A DNA stretch of 64,000 nt. Source: Flavobacteriales bacterium. GTDB lineage: Bacteria > Bacteroidota > Bacteroidia > UBA10329. Made by a program: the position numbers and the translations under genes. The stretch's first letter is position 1, and each line of letters begins with the position of its first letter. Below, in pieces: positions 8,225 through 16,983 of this stretch. The notes below the pieces were generated by a model. The model saw only the letters and a program-made list of their open reading frames with translations, was not told the DNA's origin and ran no database searches. Location of the stretch: positions 62,001 to 126,000 of the forward strand of contig JAIPBM010000004.1 in the NCBI GenBank assembly GCA_021739695.1, written 5' to 3'.

Positions 8225-8338
8225 TCAGAACGTGAAGCTCACATTTATATATCCGTTAATTCCCGGACGGGCAATGCCACCCCAATCGAGATGCTTGTTA
8301 TTTGCTTGGTTTTGGACACCCCTGTATTTGAATAACAT
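8225..8338 (-). pseudogene. Possible C-terminal remnant of an outer-membrane receptor
   Basis: A 37-codon frame starting ATG at 8338, 7 bases beyond the stop of the di-haem gene, ends ...RPGINGYINVSFTF-stop. The pattern (Trp-Gly-Gly turn, RPG, alternating residues, terminal Phe) is that of the last beta-strands of a TonB-dependent receptor. No upstream receptor sequence remains, because the preceding bases belong to the di-haem gene in another frame. I read it as the stump left by a deletion, although a tiny independent gene cannot be excluded. Confidence 0.4.
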
Positions 8339-8345
8339 GACGATT

Positions 8346-9359
8346 TCAGTTAGGGTCGGAAAGCTCAGAATCTGTAATGAACGCTTGGTCTGTGAGCGAC
8401 CCAAGGAACGCTACCAGATCGGACTTTTCCTGTTCTGTAAGCCCCAGTGGATGGATCAGTTCGTTTTGGTTTTCGTGATTTATTCCACCGGAATTGAAAT
8501 GCTCTACCACTTCAGCAAGCGTTTCAAAACTTCCATCGTGCATGTAGGGGGCGGTCAATGCCACATTGCGTAAAGTGGGGACCTTGAACTTTCCGTTATC
8601 AACTGATAATTCGGAAATGCGGGCTCTTCCACTATCAACATAGTTTTCGTAGAGCCCGATGTTCTCGTACTCAAAATTGGTGAATAAAGGCGGCAAATGA
8701 CATTCACTACAGCTTGTGGCGCTGCTGAAGAACAGGTTGCGACCGCGTTTCTCCGCTTCGGAAAGTGCACTTACGTCTCCTTGATATTCATAGGCATCAA
8801 ATCGCGAATGAGCGCTAATGAAGGTGCGCTCAAATGCTGCAATGGACCGCGAAATTCCGAAAGCTCCGGGTTCTTGGTCGTATGCTTCACGGAACATGCG
8901 CTCGTACTCAACATCCCCAGCAATCCGCTGTAAAAATCCAGCAATGGTGAAATCCATCTCCACATGCGTGAATATGGGCGATTGAGATTGCAGCTCAAGC
9001 GTGGTGACGCCACCATCCATGAACATTCTATCGGTATAACCGATATTGGCGAGCGTTGGGGTATTGCGCAGCCCCAGTCTGTCTTCAATTCCTAATGCAA
9101 TCGGCAATCCATCGGTAAATGCATTTTCCTGCTGATGACAACTGCCGCAGGAAACTGTCATGTCTCTCGACAGACGTGAATCATAGAACAGTTTTCTTCC
9201 TAGTTCGATCCGTGCCTTGGCCAGCTGATTTTCGGCAGGGATGTCCATTTCGGGAAACCAAGAAGGAATCTGCAGATGATCGACAGGGATTTCTGCGTCT
9301 TTCTGGCATGCCGACAGAAAGAAAATGGAAACGAAGAAGTATTTGAGTTTAAGCTTCAT
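8346..9359 (-). CDS. Di-haem cytochrome c peroxidase/MauG-like lipoprotein (MbnH-like)
   Basis: 337 residues from the ATG at 9359; an upstream ATG at 9392 would add 11 residues before the signal peptide and is less likely. A lipoprotein signal ends LSAC (Cys18). Two c-type haem sites are present: CGSCH (71-75) and CSECH (217-221). The family motifs LGRKLFYD, LRNTPTLANI and FKVPTLRN.ALTAPYMHDG are all visible. Members are bacterial cytochrome c peroxidases, MauG, and MbnH, which oxidises a Trp of its partner MbnP. It lies directly downstream of an mbnP-like gene, which favours the MbnH role. Its C-terminus (SELSDPN) resembles that of the second di-haem protein encoded at 10683-11741, so the two are probably duplicates that diverged. 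Confidence 0.92.
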   Translation of the reverse strand: MKLKLKYFFVSIFFLSACQKDAEIPVDHLQIPSWFPEMDIPAENQLAKARIELGRKLFYDSRLSRDMTVSCGSCHQQENAFTDGLPIALGIEDRLGLRNTPTLANIGYTDRMFMDGGVTTLELQSQSPIFTHVEMDFTIAGFLQRIAGDVEYERMFREAYDQEPGAFGISRSIAAFERTFISAHSRFDAYEYQGDVSALSEAEKRGRNLFFSSATSCSECHLPPLFTNFEYENIGLYENYVDSGRARISELSVDNGKFKVPTLRNVALTAPYMHDGSFETLAEVVEHFNSGGINHENQNELIHPLGLTEQEKSDLVAFLGSLTDQAFITDSELSDPN

Positions 9360-9365
9360 GGCGAT

Positions 9366-9403
9366 TAAAAAGGGCGGACGGAACATTTCCATCCGCCCTT
9401 TAA
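9366..9403 (-). terminator. Stem-loop with T-tract between mbnP-like and mbnH-like genes
   Basis: On the minus strand AAAGGGCGGATGGAA pairs with TTCCGTCCGCCCTTT (one mismatch, 3-nt loop) and is followed by TTTTAATC. It looks like an intrinsic terminator, yet the next gene of the same strand starts only 7-10 bases further on. It may therefore act as a partial terminator or an RNA-stabilising element between the two genes. Confidence 0.7.
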
Positions 9404-9422
9404 GTCTGTGATATCTAGAATG

Positions 9423-10229
9423 CTACTCCAAAGTTACTGCGTTCGGCACGTTATCTCTTACGGCCATAGCAGCAGGCATGTTATTCATGGTGTGCGTATC
9501 TTGATTGTTTCCTCTCACCACAATTCCGTTGAATAGCTCCAAGAAATCGAATTCAACGGTCATCATCATGTCTTCGTCCACCTCCATGTGGTTCATGAAC
9601 ATCAGGTCGTTACGCATCATGTCCATTCCAACGTGATACACGAACGCAGCGTTTGCAGTGCCGCTCATGTCTGCAGTAGTATCAACTAATCCTTCCATTT
9701 TTATGAAGATGTAACCAGAGTTCCAGCTCCAGAAAGCATGATCGGGATTGTTCGATGATAAGGCATTAGATGATGGCCAACTTGCCGGATCACTGTGATT
9801 GGCAACGCTATCCACCCCAACGCTGAAACCGAACGAATGATAGTGGTCATTCGTAATCGTACCAAGATCATACATCATTGTGCCGGCTTTAGCAAGCACA
9901 TACGAGTCTTCAATCATGTTCTTGGCGCCATTGTCATCGTAAAAAGCAAAACCGCTCAGGTAAACTTGCGCAATGTCAAACTTCATCTTACGACCTTCCC
10001 AGTTGGTCACTTCGGTACCGTAAGCAAAATCGGCTGTTCCTAACTTTGCGTGGAAATGCAAACTGATCTGACTAGTAGTGTCTGTGTCAAGAATACAGCT
10101 GCCATCATCTTTTTTAGCATCCTCATCGTAGTTGATAGCATTGCTATTGGTACATCCTTCTTTTTGACATCCGCTGAACGCAAATGTTCCGGCCATGATA
10201 GCCATTGAAATGAATAATTTAGTTTTCAT
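9423..10229 (-). CDS. MbnP family copper-binding lipoprotein
   Basis: 268 residues, lipoprotein signal ending FSGC (Cys21). Directly behind the lipid anchor is a GCT...AINYDEDA...DDGSC motif (about 25-45), a small Cys-paired module found in many Bacteroidota secreted proteins. The MbnP domain follows: SLHFHAKLG (His58, His60), TNWEGRKMKFDIAQVYLSG (Trp77 as candidate modified Trp), YHSFGFSVGVD and WSWNSGYIFIKMEG. The second half is unusually rich in Met and His (DMMRNDLMFMNHMEVDEDMMM). In characterised MbnP/MbnH pairs the di-haem partner converts a Trp of MbnP to kynurenine and the protein binds copper. Two di-haem genes flank this one (8346-9359 and 10683-11741). Family confident; the modification here is inference. 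Confidence 0.88.
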   Translation of the reverse strand: MKTKLFISMAIMAGTFAFSGCQKEGCTNSNAINYDEDAKKDDGSCILDTDTTSQISLHFHAKLGTADFAYGTEVTNWEGRKMKFDIAQVYLSGFAFYDDNGAKNMIEDSYVLAKAGTMMYDLGTITNDHYHSFGFSVGVDSVANHSDPASWPSSNALSSNNPDHAFWSWNSGYIFIKMEGLVDTTADMSGTANAAFVYHVGMDMMRNDLMFMNHMEVDEDMMMTVEFDFLELFNGIVVRGNNQDTHTMNNMPAAMAVRDNVPNAVTLE

Positions 10230-10320
10230 TGTTGTATGTTAATGTTTGTATCAGTTGATTTTATTCGTGCAAATCGGGCAGCACGTAACCCTTATAGAAG
10301 TAAAAACGATAGGTAGAGAA

Positions 10321-10686
10321 CTATGGCTTTGGTGGTCGGAATATGGAACTTGAGTATTCGAAAATTGCTTTTTCCACATAGTTGAAACTTGCCTTTTTGC
10401 CCTCCGAAACGAAGTTTTTGAAGGAAAAAATTGCAATTGGATGAAAGTACTCAACCATCGAACGAACCGATTCAGCTTGAGCATCCTTCTGTTCGCTTTC
10501 TGATTGGCGGATGTCTTTCTTTAAATGGCATTTACCCTCGCATTTTAGTTCGGGGCTGTCCAGATTTTCGCATAGCACCGTTGCCACGTACTCCCTATTC
10601 ATCCAATAGTTGACATGCGGCACATACGCTTGCAGTAGTGTGAAGACGTACAGTCCGGTAATCAATATGGTGGAAATTCTACTCAA
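10321..10686 (-). CDS. Small membrane-anchored Cys protein (C-x9-C-x3-CH), paralogue 1
   Basis: 121 residues. The start is a TTG that overlaps the TGA of the upstream di-haem gene (TTGA), implying translational coupling. One hydrophobic segment (about 3-24) is followed by a periplasmic part with Cys39, Cys49, Cys53 and His54 in the motif CEN.D.PELKC.GKCHL. The remainder is polar with a C-terminal IFRPP. The protein encoded at 13232-13606 has the same spacing of all four residues and the same IF.PP end. I do not know a named family. A metal-binding or thiol role beside the copper proteins is inference. The CH with one preceding Cys is not a haem CxxCH site (CEGKCH has three residues between the Cys). 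Confidence 0.78.
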   Translation of the reverse strand: MSRISTILITGLYVFTLLQAYVPHVNYWMNREYVATVLCENLDSPELKCEGKCHLKKDIRQSESEQKDAQAESVRSMVEYFHPIAIFSFKNFVSEGKKASFNYVEKAIFEYSSSIFRPPKP

Positions 10687-11741
10687 GGATTTGGGTCGCT
10701 TAGATCAGGATTACTGAGGAATTCCTCATCCGTGAATGTTTTTAGGAATGCGAGCAGATCTTGCTTTTCCTGTTGAGTGAGCTGCGCGCCTCCGTTGCCA
10801 ACCAACTTCATCAAAGGATCGAGAGTTGGAGATTGCAGAATGTGTTCGCTATAATGATCAATGACTTCCTCGAGTGTAAAGAACCTTCCATCGTGCATGT
10901 ATGGTGCAGTAATTTCGATGTTGCGAAGTGTTGGAGTACGAAACTTACCCAAGTCAGCTGCATTCTCAGTTACCAGATATCGACCACCATCCTGGAAGGT
11001 CACATCCAGACCATTGTTGTGGAATTTATTGTCGGTGATAAGCCCACCCAATCCGTGACAATGGAAGCAATCAGCTCCTTCACCATTGAAGAGTACAAAG
11101 CCACGTGTTTCTGATTCGCTCAATTGTATGGACTGCTGATTGTACCATTTATCAAACTTAGAATTGCCGGAAATGAGGGTTCGAAGAAATTGAGAAATAG
11201 CTTTGGTCACAAGGACCGAATCGACCCTATCCGCGTTGTACGCTTGGTCAAACAAACTTAAATACTCATCACTTGCATTTAACTTAGCTTCAACTTCGGG
11301 CCAAGTTGTGTTCATTTCTATTGGATTCCGAATTGGCTCAAATACCAGATCCTGGAGTGTGGCGGCTCTACCATCCCAGAATAACCCGAACTGATTCCAC
11401 CCAAGATTGATGAGGGCATTGGCATTTCTATTACCTATGCTTCCATCAATTCCTTGGCTAAACTGTCTTGGGTCCCCAAAGCCCTGTTCCTGCCTGTGAC
11501 AGCTTGAGCACGACTGCGTATTATCGCCCGATAGAAGAGGATCATAGAACAGTTTCCTTCCCAAGGCAACGCCTTCTACGGTCATTGGGTTATCCGCAGG
11601 AATGAAAAGCTCCATTGATGGTAACCCTTTAGGAATGTTCAATTCGTAAGGAGTGGTTATCGAGTCGTCATCATCCGGCTGATTACAACTGCCAATTATC
11701 ACTCCTATCAGAAGCATGATTATCCAGCGCAAACGGTTCAT
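10683..11741 (-). CDS. Second di-haem cytochrome c peroxidase/MauG-like lipoprotein
   Basis: 352 residues from the ATG at 11741, which opens on a lipoprotein signal ending IIGSC (Cys19). An upstream ATG at 11765 is less likely. Haem sites are CSSCH (78-82) and CFHCH (225-229). GRKLFYDPLLSGDNTQSC, FWDGRAATLQDL, FRTPTLRNIEITAPYMHDG and TQQEKQDLLAFLKT are typical of the cytochrome c peroxidase/MauG family. The FWDGRA stretch resembles classical peroxidases more than MauG. It starts 98 bases downstream of the His-rich lipoprotein gene and overlaps the next small Cys-protein gene by 4 bases. Having two non-identical di-haem enzymes around one MbnP suggests different partners or duplicated function. 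Confidence 0.92.
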   Translation of the reverse strand: MNRLRWIIMLLIGVIIGSCNQPDDDDSITTPYELNIPKGLPSMELFIPADNPMTVEGVALGRKLFYDPLLSGDNTQSCSSCHRQEQGFGDPRQFSQGIDGSIGNRNANALINLGWNQFGLFWDGRAATLQDLVFEPIRNPIEMNTTWPEVEAKLNASDEYLSLFDQAYNADRVDSVLVTKAISQFLRTLISGNSKFDKWYNQQSIQLSESETRGFVLFNGEGADCFHCHGLGGLITDNKFHNNGLDVTFQDGGRYLVTENAADLGKFRTPTLRNIEITAPYMHDGRFFTLEEVIDHYSEHILQSPTLDPLMKLVGNGGAQLTQQEKQDLLAFLKTFTDEEFLSNPDLSDPNP

Positions 11742-11838
11742 TGTGTTTAAAACAACAGGTTTCATGTTAAGTTGTCTAAAATGAAGAGCTTATGAGTACT
11801 TGCAAAGGGTCTCTTGACATCTCTGGACAAATTCTCAT

Positions 11839-12234
11839 TTACATGGGGTGCATGTGGAAAGTCTCAGTGGCAACCGTCTCTTCTTCTTCATGATCCGAAG
11901 CAGTTACAGTAAGCGTAAAGTCCGAGTGTGTCGTTGTTGTGAACATGGTATCTACTTCAAAACTATAACTGGCTTCGTGAGAATGATCGTAATGAGAATA
12001 AACCTCAACCGAATCATGTTCCCTAACCACAGTAACAACTATTTCGTGCAGGCCAACATCATCTGTAGCTTCAACGTGGATAGTTATCGGCATCCCACTC
12101 ATGTACGGGTTGTTTGTGGCAGATGGGCTGATGATAGTTACCACTGGTGCTTGGTTTTCTTCAATCTTGGTACATGAAGTAAAACCAGAAGCAATAAGTA
12201 TAGCAACGCTTAAAATTGAAATTGAATTTTTCAT
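11839..12234 (-). CDS. His-rich Ig-like lipoprotein (DUF4625-like)
   Basis: 131 residues with a lipoprotein signal ending FTSC (about Cys20). The mature protein is a single immunoglobulin-like beta-sandwich: APVVTIISPS...ITIHVEATDDVGLHEIVVTVV, a pattern I associate with DUF4625 of Bacteroidota. It is decorated with histidines (SHYDHSHEAS, THSDF, DHEEEE, FHMHPM), including a His-Met tail suited to bind metal. It sits between the barrel gene (30 bases upstream) and the second di-haem gene, on the same strand. A role as a periplasmic metal-binding partner of the di-haem/MbnP proteins is inference from composition and context. The DUF assignment is from memory. Confidence 0.72.
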   Translation of the reverse strand: MKNSISILSVAILIASGFTSCTKIEENQAPVVTIISPSATNNPYMSGMPITIHVEATDDVGLHEIVVTVVREHDSVEVYSHYDHSHEASYSFEVDTMFTTTTHSDFTLTVTASDHEEEETVATETFHMHPM

Positions 12235-12264
12235 TGAAATTGATTTGATACTGTTGAAATGTGT

Positions 12265-13179
12265 TTAAATGAGAAATAGAATCGAAAAATTGAACTGGTG
12301 CTTAGGCGTTACCTCGCCAGCACCTAGCTCGTAACCAATTGGGAGTCCGTACCCAAGCGATGACATAAATCGTTTGTAACCGATTTGAACTTCTGCACGG
12401 GCTGTAAGCAAATAACCTCCCGTTTTTACTTGTCGCCTGCGATTATCAATATCTGTCATGGCATAATCAGCGTTTAGCGCTACCTGCGGCATAAACGTAA
12501 CGTTTCGGTAGATGGTCCAATAGAATGCTCCAACAATGCCAGTTATTCGGTCTCCGAATTTGTAATCGAACCGATTTGTTGTATTTAACTTGTAATTGAT
12601 CAAACTTGATACCCCCCATCGTTTTATGCGGAGAATGTAACGGAGATTAAAGTTGGGGTCCCAACTACCTGATCCTGGCTGCAAGTTTTGATGCAGTACT
12701 TCATTATCCTGTTTCAGCTGAGTTGCACCAGTTGGTATCTTCAACCCAGCTCCGACAAGTATGTTGTGCCTTACCTTTTTTCCAACCGTGTCTGGTGTAG
12801 AAAGCACCGTATAAACGGCTCCAATGGTAGCATCTCCTATTCCATAACCTACAAACGACCCGCTGATATTCGATTTTTGTATGCGGTATGTGAACGGAAG
12901 CGAAGCCAGTAGTTGAACACGCTTGTGTGGCACATATCTACCAAGCAACTCTACAGAATGAAAGTTTTCGACACTGCGTTCCTGTTCTGCTGTATCATAC
13001 AGAGAACCTAAATGCGTGGTTTTAAACTGTTGGAAGCTGTATCGCAAACCAACATAATGCTTTCCAAACTGAGGCACTATACCCATAAAACCGCTTGACG
13101 CACAACCACATTGATCACAGGCCTGTACGCTCAAACTTGACATGGTCAATAGACCAAGCCCAAGAATAAACTGTTTCAT
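12265..13179 (-). CDS. Outer-membrane beta-barrel protein with N-terminal CDQCGC motif
   Basis: 304 residues. The signal peptide ends VQA, so the mature protein would begin with CDQCGC (Cys21, Cys24, Cys26), a likely metal-binding head. The rest is a chain of alternating beta-strands (YVGLRYSFQQF, LLGRYVPHKRVQLLASLPFTYR, HNILVGAGLKIPTG) ending ...FNFSILFLI, a typical outer-membrane barrel of about twelve strands. Similar 'transporter-like' barrels with a CxxCGC head occur near metal genes in Bacteroidota, from memory. It is the second gene of the minus-strand run that begins at 13606, 52 bases after the first. Copper or other metal passage is inference; the barrel call is firm. Confidence 0.8.
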   Translation of the reverse strand: MKQFILGLGLLTMSSLSVQACDQCGCASSGFMGIVPQFGKHYVGLRYSFQQFKTTHLGSLYDTAEQERSVENFHSVELLGRYVPHKRVQLLASLPFTYRIQKSNISGSFVGYGIGDATIGAVYTVLSTPDTVGKKVRHNILVGAGLKIPTGATQLKQDNEVLHQNLQPGSGSWDPNFNLRYILRIKRWGVSSLINYKLNTTNRFDYKFGDRITGIVGAFYWTIYRNVTFMPQVALNADYAMTDIDNRRRQVKTGGYLLTARAEVQIGYKRFMSSLGYGLPIGYELGAGEVTPKHQFNFSILFLI

Positions 13180-13231
13180 TATTAAGATGTATTAAGTTGA
13201 AATACGGACCGATGGCCGTTAATTTTCTAAC

Positions 13232-13606
13232 TCATACAACCTGTGGTGGATGAAAGATGGAATGTAAATGGTTGGAATAATTGCCTTCGAGATAAAGGCT
13301 GTTTGAAGCAATCGGTTCTGAATCGACCGATCGGAATTCAAAATTGGATATTTCTTCTACTGCAAGAACAAACACAGTCAATTCTGTAAGAGAAGCAGGT
13401 GTTTCTGATTTCTGTTCCGAATCGGCCTTTATCTGCTTCATCAGATGACATTTACCATTACACTTCAGTTCTGGTTTATCCGTGTTTTCGCAGAAGTTCT
13501 CGATAATGTAAGCCGTGTTCACCTCGTAATTCAGGAGTATAAGAGAAGCACTCATCATTTGAATGATGAACACAACTGCTAAACCGAGTATGCCGAGATT
13601 TCTCAC
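13232..13606 (-). CDS. Small membrane-anchored Cys protein (C-x9-C-x3-CH), paralogue 2
   Basis: 124 residues with a GTG start at 13606. A hydrophobic helix (about 3-26) is followed by Cys39, Cys49, Cys53 and His54 in CEN.D.PELKC.GKCHL.K.I, exactly the positions found in the protein encoded at 10321-10686. A polar region with EQK and a C-terminal IFHPP complete the resemblance, while the middle parts have diverged. It is the first gene of the run that includes the barrel, His-rich lipoprotein, di-haem and MbnP genes. The region upstream (13607-13684) holds no perfect -7 box; CATATTTG is one mismatch away from the consensus. Function unknown; periplasmic metal or redox handling is inferred from context. 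Confidence 0.76.
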   Translation of the reverse strand: MRNLGILGLAVVFIIQMMSASLILLNYEVNTAYIIENFCENTDKPELKCNGKCHLMKQIKADSEQKSETPASLTELTVFVLAVEEISNFEFRSVDSEPIASNSLYLEGNYSNHLHSIFHPPQVV

Positions 13607-16470: not shown

Positions 16471-16680
16471 CTAGCCAATCCCGTGGTGGCGTAAGGTATT
16501 ACGCCCGAACGAACGTTTCCACGTCATTGCTGTAGAAGTCAACTAATTCGGGGAATTCCGTTGCAATCTGTTCCCTTACTGCCGCATTCCTCGAGCCACG
16601 TCATTACGAGTGAAGATCGAATGCAGCAATCTCCAAATCACGTCACTAATCCCCCAACCAACCGTGCCAGGCTGTTGACA

Positions 16681-16983
16681 CAGTTCGTTGAACAGACCCA
16701 CACAGTTCGCTGAACAGACCCTTGCATCGCGCTTGAACACCCTTGCAGATCCACTGAGCAAGCTTGCGTCTTTATCGAACAAGCGTACAATCATCTTGAG
16801 CTTCCTTGCGTCATCGTTGAGCATCCATGCACAGCTCTTGAACCTATTTGCAATGTCCTTGAACCTGCTTGCAAAGCCCTTGAACCTGCTTGCAATGCCC
16901 TTGAGCTGCCTTGCAACACCCTTGGCACTTGCTTGCAAACTGTTTGAGCCGTCATACAACCGCAATGAATCGCCATGCACCGC
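16681..16983 (+). repeat. Degenerate 21-nt tandem array 1
   Basis: From 16733 the sequence falls into consecutive 21-base units of the form TTGA(A/G)C-N5-TTGCA-N5: starts at 16733, 16754, 16775, 16796, 16817, 16838, 16859, 16880, 16901 and so on to about 16983. Two units (16859 and 16880) are nearly identical and the others drift. Before 16733 the spacing becomes 22-23 bases. There are no unique spacers, so it is not CRISPR. Because 21 is divisible by three, long frames stay open on both strands (for example seven-residue repeats GIASRFK on the minus strand), but I see no convincing gene. The rest of 16984-17081 is unremarkable. Confidence 0.8.

Follow-up and report, generated by a model that had tools for sequence, protein, structure and literature searches.

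A conserved Bacteroidia gene module that probably handles copper in the cell envelope under copper-sensing leaders

Passage of copper across the outer membrane of Gram-negative bacteria is poorly known, and we found no description of it for the Bacteroidota. The locus examined here, part of a 64,000-nucleotide stretch of Flavobacteriales DNA (the window), encodes relatives of the copper protein MbnP and its di-haem partner MbnH together with proteins that had no obvious place beside them, which raises the question of whether these genes act together, on which metal, and under what control. We put at roughly 0.6 the probability that the locus is a Bacteroidia module for the acquisition and handling of copper in the envelope, governed by copper-sensing leaders; the copper binding, stalling, regulatory polarity, transport direction, and Trp oxidation that belong to this reading are steps that we infer.

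Seven genes on one strand form a conserved module

The open reading frames of the window contained all seven genes that a sequence-only reading had proposed, in the order claimed and all on the minus strand. They are given below from upstream to downstream, together with two RNA features.

13232 to 13606, minus strand: cysA (C), GTG start, 124 aa
13180 to 13262, minus strand: RNA stem joining the cysA end and the barrel start, from folding; 16.8 expected pairs versus 3.9 in shuffles
12265 to 13179, minus strand: barrel (B), 304 aa; signal peptide, then C21-x-x-C24-x-C26
11839 to 12234, minus strand: Ig-fold lipoprotein (I); lipobox C21; Big_7, 25.5 bits
10683 to 11765, minus strand: mbnH1, di-haem lipoprotein; CSSCH at 86, CFHCH at 233, Tyr305
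10321 to 10686, minus strand: cysB (C), TTG start, 121 aa; overlaps the mbnH1 stop
9423 to 10229, minus strand: mbnP (P), lipoprotein; PF20243, 98.1 bits; WxW at Trp167/Trp169
9361 to 9420, minus strand: hairpin with U run resembling an intrinsic terminator, in the mbnP/mbnH2 gap; -25.8 kcal/mol, z -5.35 by direct folding
8346 to 9359, minus strand: mbnH2, di-haem lipoprotein; CGSCH and CSECH; CCP_MauG match

The start of mbnH2 is most likely the ATG at 9359 rather than 9392, behind the terminator-like hairpin. The interval first proposed for the locus runs to 8225; the final stop codon ends at 8346. A scan for promoter and terminator consensus sequences gave signals no commoner than chance. 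Pfam assigned CCP_MauG to both di-haem proteins, PF20243 to MbnP, and Big_7 to the Ig lipoprotein; it gave no match for cysA, cysB, or the barrel, and NCBIfam gave nothing useful for these three. A match of cysB to the NCBIfam Rho-binding antiterminator was weak and was taken as chance.

We read 132 non-duplicate Bacteroidia loci, sampled by barrel similarity. Related loci were found from an alignment of a closer subset of barrels, a 19-sequence barrel alignment being too variable, and their MbnH genes were found with MbnH1 as the query and later with a profile. These loci are related by descent, so the p values obtained from them overstate independence. Of the 132 loci, 114 had a small Cys gene near the Cys-headed barrel, 65 had MbnP there, and 62 had the His-rich Ig lipoprotein; the corresponding counts in an even sample of the class (n = 80 loci) were 74, 47, and 34. 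A class-wide listing of 150 MbnP genes had 35 within 6 kb of a barrel gene, every one of them on the same strand as that gene. The idea that the seven genes are unrelated neighbours with no joint function might appeal to the fact that MbnP, MbnH, and the Ig lipoprotein are each also found without the others, but it is extremely improbable given that dozens of genera repeat the orders C-B-I, C-B-P-H, and C-P-H-B (H, MbnH) between flanks that are themselves unrelated. Carriers in culture include Saprospira grandis, Adhaeribacter soli, and Lishizhenia tianjinensis. The seven genes are a conserved module, grouped far beyond chance. The sequence-only reading had named the lack of a conserved neighbourhood as what would overturn it, and the grouping instead recurs in most Bacteroidia barrel loci. 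Its pair of di-haem enzymes proved not to be a fixed feature: most MbnP loci carry a single MbnH gene, and the H-P-H triad occurs mainly within the source genus.

MbnP and its di-haem partners

The best PDB matches for MbnP and for both MbnH proteins were the MbnP/MbnH structures (7l6g and 6e1c) from Methylosinus trichosporium, in which, as here, a WxW-containing MbnP (TIGR04052) and a di-haem partner (TIGR04039) are encoded by adjacent genes. The PF20243 score of the window MbnP lies above the Pfam cut-off of 27 bits; its TIGR04052 score, 39.9 bits, lies below the equivalog cut-off of 140, and the TIGR04039 scores of MbnH1 (267.8 bits) and MbnH2 (280 bits) lie below the NCBIfam cut-off of 362.85. 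MbnH1 and MbnH2 each have two CxxCH haem sites, and the closest PDB relative of both is MbnH, with 6e1c the best match for MbnH1. A Tyr aligned with 6e1c, which we take to be axial, is present in 55 of 60 MbnH proteins, including MbnH1 (Tyr305), and MbnH2 has Phe instead (residue 299 when the ORF is read as 348 aa from 9392).

The residue of MbnP previously put forward as modified, Trp77, was the wrong one. The relevant pair is the WxW formed by Trp167-Ser-Trp169, which a profile match aligned with the WxW of 7l6g. This motif was found in all 50 of the MbnP proteins adjoining an MbnH, and none of the 9 lacking it had an MbnH nearby (p = 1.6e-5, a value in which the kinship of the loci overstates independence). 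Trp167 is a candidate kynurenine site. MbnH1 would oxidise it to kynurenine, completing a Cu(I) site, and MbnH2 may assist MbnH1 or catalyse a related oxidation.

The window locus departs from the known MbnP/MbnH pair in having two MbnH-like proteins and in the addition of the Cys-headed barrel, the Ig lipoprotein, and the leader genes discussed below. The methanobactin genes MbnA, MbnB, and MbnC are not among the seven. In the sections of the literature available to us, CorA/CorB and MopE of methanotrophs, further close counterparts of the locus, are described as a copper protein with a di-haem partner, with conversion of Trp to kynurenine and repression by copper. Those sections report no barrel or leader, unlike the locus described here, and give the sequences as not markedly similar to MbnP (PMC3621798).

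The Cys-headed barrel and the Ig-fold lipoprotein

The AF2 model of the barrel (pLDDT 85.9) is a 12-stranded outer-membrane channel, for which the top Foldseek matches were 4rl8, a COG4313 channel (TM 0.63/0.70), and FapF; a profile match to FapF was weak (2e-6). The barrel shares its 12-stranded fold with the COG4313/Phenol_MetA_deg (PF13557) channels and FapF and is set apart from them by its conserved CxxCxC head. These three residues, C21, C24, and C26, were conserved in 41, 41, and 38 of 41 aligned barrels, and C21 follows the likely end of the signal peptide. A Pfam search gave no PF13557 match for the window barrel; a divergent member of the family (L231) matched PF13557 at 7e-8. We propose that the barrel would act as a COG4313/FapF-like channel, with the CxxCxC head at its mature N-terminus, and would let copper through the outer membrane or load it there. 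The Ig lipoprotein has conserved ELH, HxH, DH, and C-terminal FHxHPM motifs and was predicted by AF2 to have an Ig-like fold (pLDDT 89.9); a fold search returned generic Ig-like folds only, from which no function could be read. This protein and MbnP may be alternative or joint putative copper-holding lipoproteins.

Small Cys proteins as probable copper-sensing leaders

Both small Cys proteins have C39, C49, and C53. In CysA, a hydrophobic N-terminus is followed by C39 and by C49-x-G-x-C53, and the chain ends in SIFHPPQVV; CysB ends in SIFRPPKP. The two are homologous (about 1e-17) and are the sole copies in the genome. Members of the family share a Sec-like N-terminus, the CxGxC motif, a near-fixed spacer, and a terminal [IV]F[HR]PP; C39, C49, G51, C53, P120, and P121 are invariant in the alignment, and the middle region is poorly conserved. 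A hydrophobic N-terminus was present in all 137 of the C proteins tested. PP occurred within the last 10 residues of 127 of 138 C proteins, compared with 1 of 364 other module proteins and 37 of 2,148 other ORFs; in most C proteins it lies 1 to 5 residues ahead of the stop, at a median of 67 residues from CxGxC. Of 138 C genes, 132 stood first in their module, and a longer gap followed C genes than other genes (64 versus 12 nt, p = 6e-25, in loci that share ancestry).

The end of the C gene was predicted to pair with the start of the next gene, with 7.4 expected pairs versus 2.8 in shuffles (p = 6e-9) and 8.3 versus 3.6 in another comparison, and such pairing was absent at control junctions. 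At cysA, the stop-codon region and the FH codons pair with the initiation region of the barrel gene, including TTTCAT with ATGAAA. The pairing was not a mere match of FH codons to ATG-AAA starts, since the signal persisted when the start codon was excluded from the zone. No stem from cysB to the mbnP start was found at the window junction, and across the loci the stem was weaker overall before mbnP.

Known precedents for such an arrangement are CruR of Bordetella pertussis and CutF of Rhodobacter capsulatus, DUF2946 proteins that act as copper-sensing leaders (PMC9426467, PMC9973294). Like them, C proteins are small, have an exported-type N-terminus and a Cys pair, stand first in a copper operon, and carry a terminal proline motif at near-fixed spacing just before the stop. 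A long gap after the leader is shared with CruR and a stem-loop with CutF, and operons of the CruR type also carry genes for OprC-type receptors and MbnPH-like proteins. The Cys pair is CxxC or CxxxC in CruR/CutF but CxGxC in the C family, the proline motif is RAPP/RGPP in the former but F[HR]PP in the latter, and the Cys-to-PP spacing is about 45 versus about 67 residues. PF11162 (DUF2946) matched none of 39 C-family members, and comparing profiles with five sequences of the DUF2946 type showed no remote homology (hhalign 0.6%).

Alternatively, the small Cys proteins could be stable proteins, anchored in the membrane, that act in the periplasm as copper chaperones or reductants and pass copper to the barrel, MbnP, or the TonB receptor described below, with the PP tail structural or used for interaction, as their hydrophobic N-terminus, three invariant Cys residues, and strict gene linkage would allow. 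We regard this as a minority possibility. The two conserved elements of the C family are those of CruR/CutF, with little conservation between them, and the chaperone role is disfavoured because a near-stop PP, a leading position followed by a long structured gap, and a stem uniting the C end with the next start are unexpected in an ordinary partner protein. The C genes are probably copper-sensing arrest-peptide leaders and not structural partners, and the earlier description of them as paired periplasmic proteins gives way to a leader-like one. It appears likely that the C proteins constitute a new Bacteroidota class of arrest-peptide leaders that sense metal, combining a CxGxC copper sensor with F[HR]PP in place of RAPP as the arrest motif and with a leader-end/next-start stem, and apparently unrelated to CruR/CutF in sequence. 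The interchangeable outer-membrane copper systems that they would control are the Cys-headed channel with the Ig lipoprotein, MbnP/MbnH with the channel, and an OprC-like receptor with a YtkA lipoprotein.

In the mechanism that we propose, the nascent, Sec-targeted C chain would present CxGxC as a copper ligand about 67 residues before the F[HR]PP arrest motif. When copper is scarce, the ribosome would stall at the PP codons and cover the 5' arm of the stem. The stem could then no longer hide the next gene's start or serve as a terminator, and the transport genes would be made. Copper bound to CxGxC would release the stall and turn these genes off. CysA is proposed to lead the barrel gene and those after it, and CysB to be a second leader, ahead of mbnP; CysB, for which the stem was not found, would act by another route if it acts at all. 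A copper-sensing switch has not been reported for these copper genes in Bacteroidota, and the translational switch proposed here would operate in a phylum from which RAPP/RGPP copper uORFs were reported to be absent (2025 survey).

Linkage to copper genes and direction of transport

Genes of known copper context neighbour the module in related loci. In one of these (L060), Pfam matches gave the order NosZ-NosL-NosD-NosF-ScdA-C-P-H-B-I; nos genes also accompany a barrel in L110, L114, and L170, making four nos clusters in all, and SCO1 and YHS genes neighbour the module in related loci. In three congeners (G004, G006, and G007), the slot between etfB-etfA-BFN and nupC holds a C gene, a YtkA lipoprotein, and a TonB receptor. 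For relatives of this receptor, the best PDB match was OprC, and the GAC..KM (CxxxM) and HxM motifs are conserved. Among 9 congeners, the OprC-like receptor was present in 5, the barrel in 2, and both in none. An OprC-like receptor, OprC being a TonB-dependent copper importer, takes the slot of the barrel behind the C gene, whereas the barrel itself is a 12-stranded channel without a TonB Pfam match. We assign copper to the module because of its linkage to nos, SCO1, and YHS genes and the OprC-like replacement at the same locus. Of the copper system around MbnP first suggested, a conserved, copper-linked module of the barrel and its partners stood, and the Cys proteins as periplasmic partners did not.

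The module could instead serve another metal, such as zinc, iron, or haem, with MbnP/MbnH borrowed for a different oxidation. CobW and Fur-family neighbours in L068, a zinc-like context, matches to a Fur-like query in L169 and L171, and the His-rich Ig lipoprotein are compatible with this, but it is quite improbable in view of the nos, SCO1, and YHS linkage, the swap with an OprC-like receptor whose copper site is conserved, and the homology of MbnP.

Rather unlikely, too, is that the module exports or detoxifies copper, with the barrel as an efflux channel or surface copper sink and the leaders switching the module on in excess copper. CutF has this polarity, turning its operon on with copper (PMC9973294), and of the folds nearest to the barrel, one is a passive channel and the other serves in secretion. 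Against export stand the neighbouring nos and SCO1 genes for copper delivery, the functional analogue CorA, which the available part of its literature describes as copper repressed and made at low copper, and the same-locus swap with an OprC-like importer, the two never co-occurring in the genus. Copper acquisition and handling remains our preferred reading, in which the outer-membrane component of a widespread module would be exchanged in some genomes for an OprC-like importer; the loci of this module link MbnP/MbnH with genes for the assembly of nitrous-oxide reductase and oxidase.

Gene content and conservation of the locus

The seven genes are carried on the minus strand from 13606 to 8346, in the order C, B, I, H1, C', P, H2, on one contig of a 4.24-Mb draft genome that is 98.5% complete.

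13232..13606, minus strand, small Cys protein (C, cysA)
12265..13179, minus strand, Cys-headed barrel (B)
11839..12234, minus strand, His-rich Ig lipoprotein (I)
10683..11765, minus strand, MbnH-like di-haem protein (H1)
10321..10686, minus strand, second small Cys protein (C', cysB)
9423..10229, minus strand, MbnP (P)
8346..9359, minus strand, second MbnH-like di-haem protein (H2)

Pfam searches matched both H1 and H2 to CCP_MauG, P to MbnP, and I to Big_7, and gave no match for C or B. The start of H2 is most likely the ATG at 9359; since direct folding shows a hairpin (-25.8 kcal/mol) and U run upstream of it, H2 may be expressed below P. Near the locus, at 16678-16939, is an array of 21-22 bp imperfect repeats that is open in frames on both strands, and a repetitive ORF near a paralogous cluster on contig C28 (L008:14002-14598) looks comparable. 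The short lipoprotein head GCTxxxAxNYDxxAxxDDGSC is common to MbnP and several unrelated exported proteins of this genome (10095-10200; L008:4710-6101; L010:4837-7012).

The barrel was present in 133 of 395 genomes of the class. We read 132 loci, 80 from the barrel-carrying class sample and 52 further non-duplicate named loci, and found C adjoining or near B in 114, P near B in 65, I near B in 62, and one or the other in 107. The families whose co-occurrence the sequence-only reading had offered as its check are therefore neighbors across the class, in recurrent orders (C-B-I, C-P-H-B, and C-B-P-H) and between flanks that are mostly unrelated. A Chitinophagaceae locus (C-B-I-C-P-H) almost exactly copies the order seen here, a congener has H-C-P-H-P, and a congener barrel is 76% identical to this one. 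Loci tended to have either P or I: 45 had P alone, 42 had I alone, 20 had both, and 25 had neither (Fisher 2.7e-4). The p-values here are only indicative because the loci are related by descent and barrel similarity was used to collect them. MbnP itself occurred in 141 of 198 class genomes, and among 150 copies listed, 35 had a barrel no more than 6 kb away, in every case on the same strand; the barrel module is therefore one among several MbnP contexts. The joint copper system of seven genes that had been proposed stands as a real, conserved copper module, except that two of its genes, those for the Cys proteins, are most likely regulators. At five loci (L231, L232, L234, L235, and L240), the gene behind C encodes a divergent barrel whose head is Cys-rich but different (CACC, CCASNCDC); MbnP is sometimes there too, together with a small CxxxCH protein.

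Link to copper

SCO1 and YHS genes are recurrent neighbors of the module, which follows nosZ-nosL-nosD-nosF and scdA (Pfam) at L060; at L110, L114, and L170 the barrel lies inside nos clusters. The strongest evidence for copper is the equivalent locus in congeners, within an order represented by nine genomes of one genus. The slot between BFN and nupC holds C, a lipoprotein with a YtkA domain, and a TonB receptor in G004, G006, and G007 (where the contig stops within the receptor, leaving the nupC side out of view) and is empty in G001, G002, G005, and G008. Every PDB match of the G004 receptor was OprC. In a related receptor (L229), GACTDKM and HSM aligned to GACPNRM and HIM of OprC and so fell on its CxxxM-HxM copper ligands (PMC8610252); this locus has C, a YtkA lipoprotein, the OprC-like receptor, and I in a single row. 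Of nine congeners, five had OprC-like receptors and a further two had the barrel. Because the same congener locus holds an OprC-like receptor, the barrel is a candidate for outer-membrane copper passage in an OprC-like role, in a comparison as small as nine genomes. Copper binding by the module and the direction of transport are proposals. C-family genes also precede TonB-receptor genes at L224, L225, L229, L233, L236 to L238, and L241; some of these receptors are OprC-like with a Cys-rich N-terminal stretch (e.g., CACVGACSC), and YtkA lipoproteins are found there too.

The Cys proteins resemble copper-sensing leaders

Members of the C family share invariant C39, C49, G51, C53, and P120-P121, with mostly 65 to 71 residues between Cys and PP, and every copy tested had a hydrophobic N-terminus. 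The terminal PP was found in 130 of 137 unique copies, mostly as [IV]F[HR]PP, and lay 1 to 5 residues ahead of the stop in 109. Within the last ten residues, PP was present in 127/138 C proteins versus 1/138 barrels, 0/226 P, I, and H proteins, and 37/2148 other ORFs. C was the first module gene in 132/138 cases. The gap after C was longer (median 64 versus 12 nt; p 6e-25), and the folding z-score of its region was lower than at gap-matched junctions (median, -1.97 versus -0.18), in keeping with better folding. In zones picked after the hairpin of this locus was seen and then applied to the other loci, the end of C paired with the next initiation region (8.3 expected pairs versus 3.6 in shuffles), and this persisted with the start codon excluded (7.4 versus 2.8; p 6e-9); no excess was found at other module junctions (3.9 expected pairs versus 3.9 in shuffles) or unrelated neighbors (3.2 versus 3.5). 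The cysA stem takes in the stop codon, and TTTCAT (codons F-H) pairs with ATGAAA, the barrel start; the pairing calculation found no such stem at cysB-mbnP. Terminal PP, first position, and the end-to-start stem make these proteins more like leaders than the structural partners they had been taken for. Ribosome stalling by C and its polarity are proposals. At the C-barrel junction of L135, the stem extends over the stop codon of the leader, and a U run comes after it. This stem could serve as an intrinsic terminator, a hint that some species may use transcription attenuation.

In CruR, a signal peptide and CxxC are followed by a spacer of 45 residues and by RAPP, which lies three residues from the end; CruR stalls in the absence of copper, and related proteins stand first in copper operons that include OprC-type receptors and MbnPH-like genes (PMC9426467). 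CutF, which is exported by Sec, has CxxxC and a proline-rich end, and the gene after it is masked by a stem (PMC9973294). The C family shares this design but no detectable sequence likeness: 0/39 members matched PF11162, and hhalign against five DUF2946-type proteins gave 0.6%. RAPP/RGPP uORFs of copper-related genes were absent from Bacteroidota in a 2025 survey (PMC12992588). This phylum does have small DUF2946-like His/Cys proteins that carry CxxC and a terminal RGPP or RAPP (L249, L250, L252, L255, and L259), the first in the same class, and may thus not lack classic CruR-type leaders entirely. We found no description of the C family or module in the open-access literature, a search whose limits keep this from being proof of absence.

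Predicted metal sites and MbnP-MbnH coupling

The barrel model has 12 strands (pLDDT 85.9), the COG4313 channel 4rl8 and FapF being the nearest folds; its low-confidence N-terminal stretch carries a conserved CxxCxC (Cys by Cys, 41/41, 41/41, and 38/41). In the well-predicted Ig lipoprotein (89.9), conserved residues are mainly His (ELH, HxH, and DH), and many members end in an FHCHPM-like tail. Metal binding by both proteins is putative.

The MbnP profile matched the solved MbnP 7l6g (E 0.001), which we take to be that of M. trichosporium, with WxW motifs aligned. The motif here is Trp167-Ser-Trp169, leaving Trp77, earlier put forward as the modified residue, outside it. WxW was present in 50/50 MbnPs that had an MbnH no more than 1.5 kb away, and 9/9 MbnPs lacking it had no near MbnH (Fisher 1.6e-5, ancestry ignored); this coupling fits MbnH acting on WxW. 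Non-WxW MbnPs sometimes share a locus with an intact MbnP/MbnH pair (L118 and L126). At the position aligned with the Tyr of the solved MbnH 6e1c, 55/60 MbnHs have Tyr; the residue is Phe in H2 and in its paralogue on C28. Both di-haem enzymes of the sequence-only reading are present, but H-P-H triads in several congeners make their pairing mainly a feature of the genus. A second MbnH-MbnP-MbnH cluster of this genome (G000:C28:54510-57322; L008:8505-11467) has neither barrel nor Cys leader and adjoins TauE-like permease, rhodanese-like, and thioredoxin-like ORFs. A third MbnP-MbnH pair (G000:C20:2017-5199; L011) is followed by a secreted 446-aa protein, YHYH-like by sequence.
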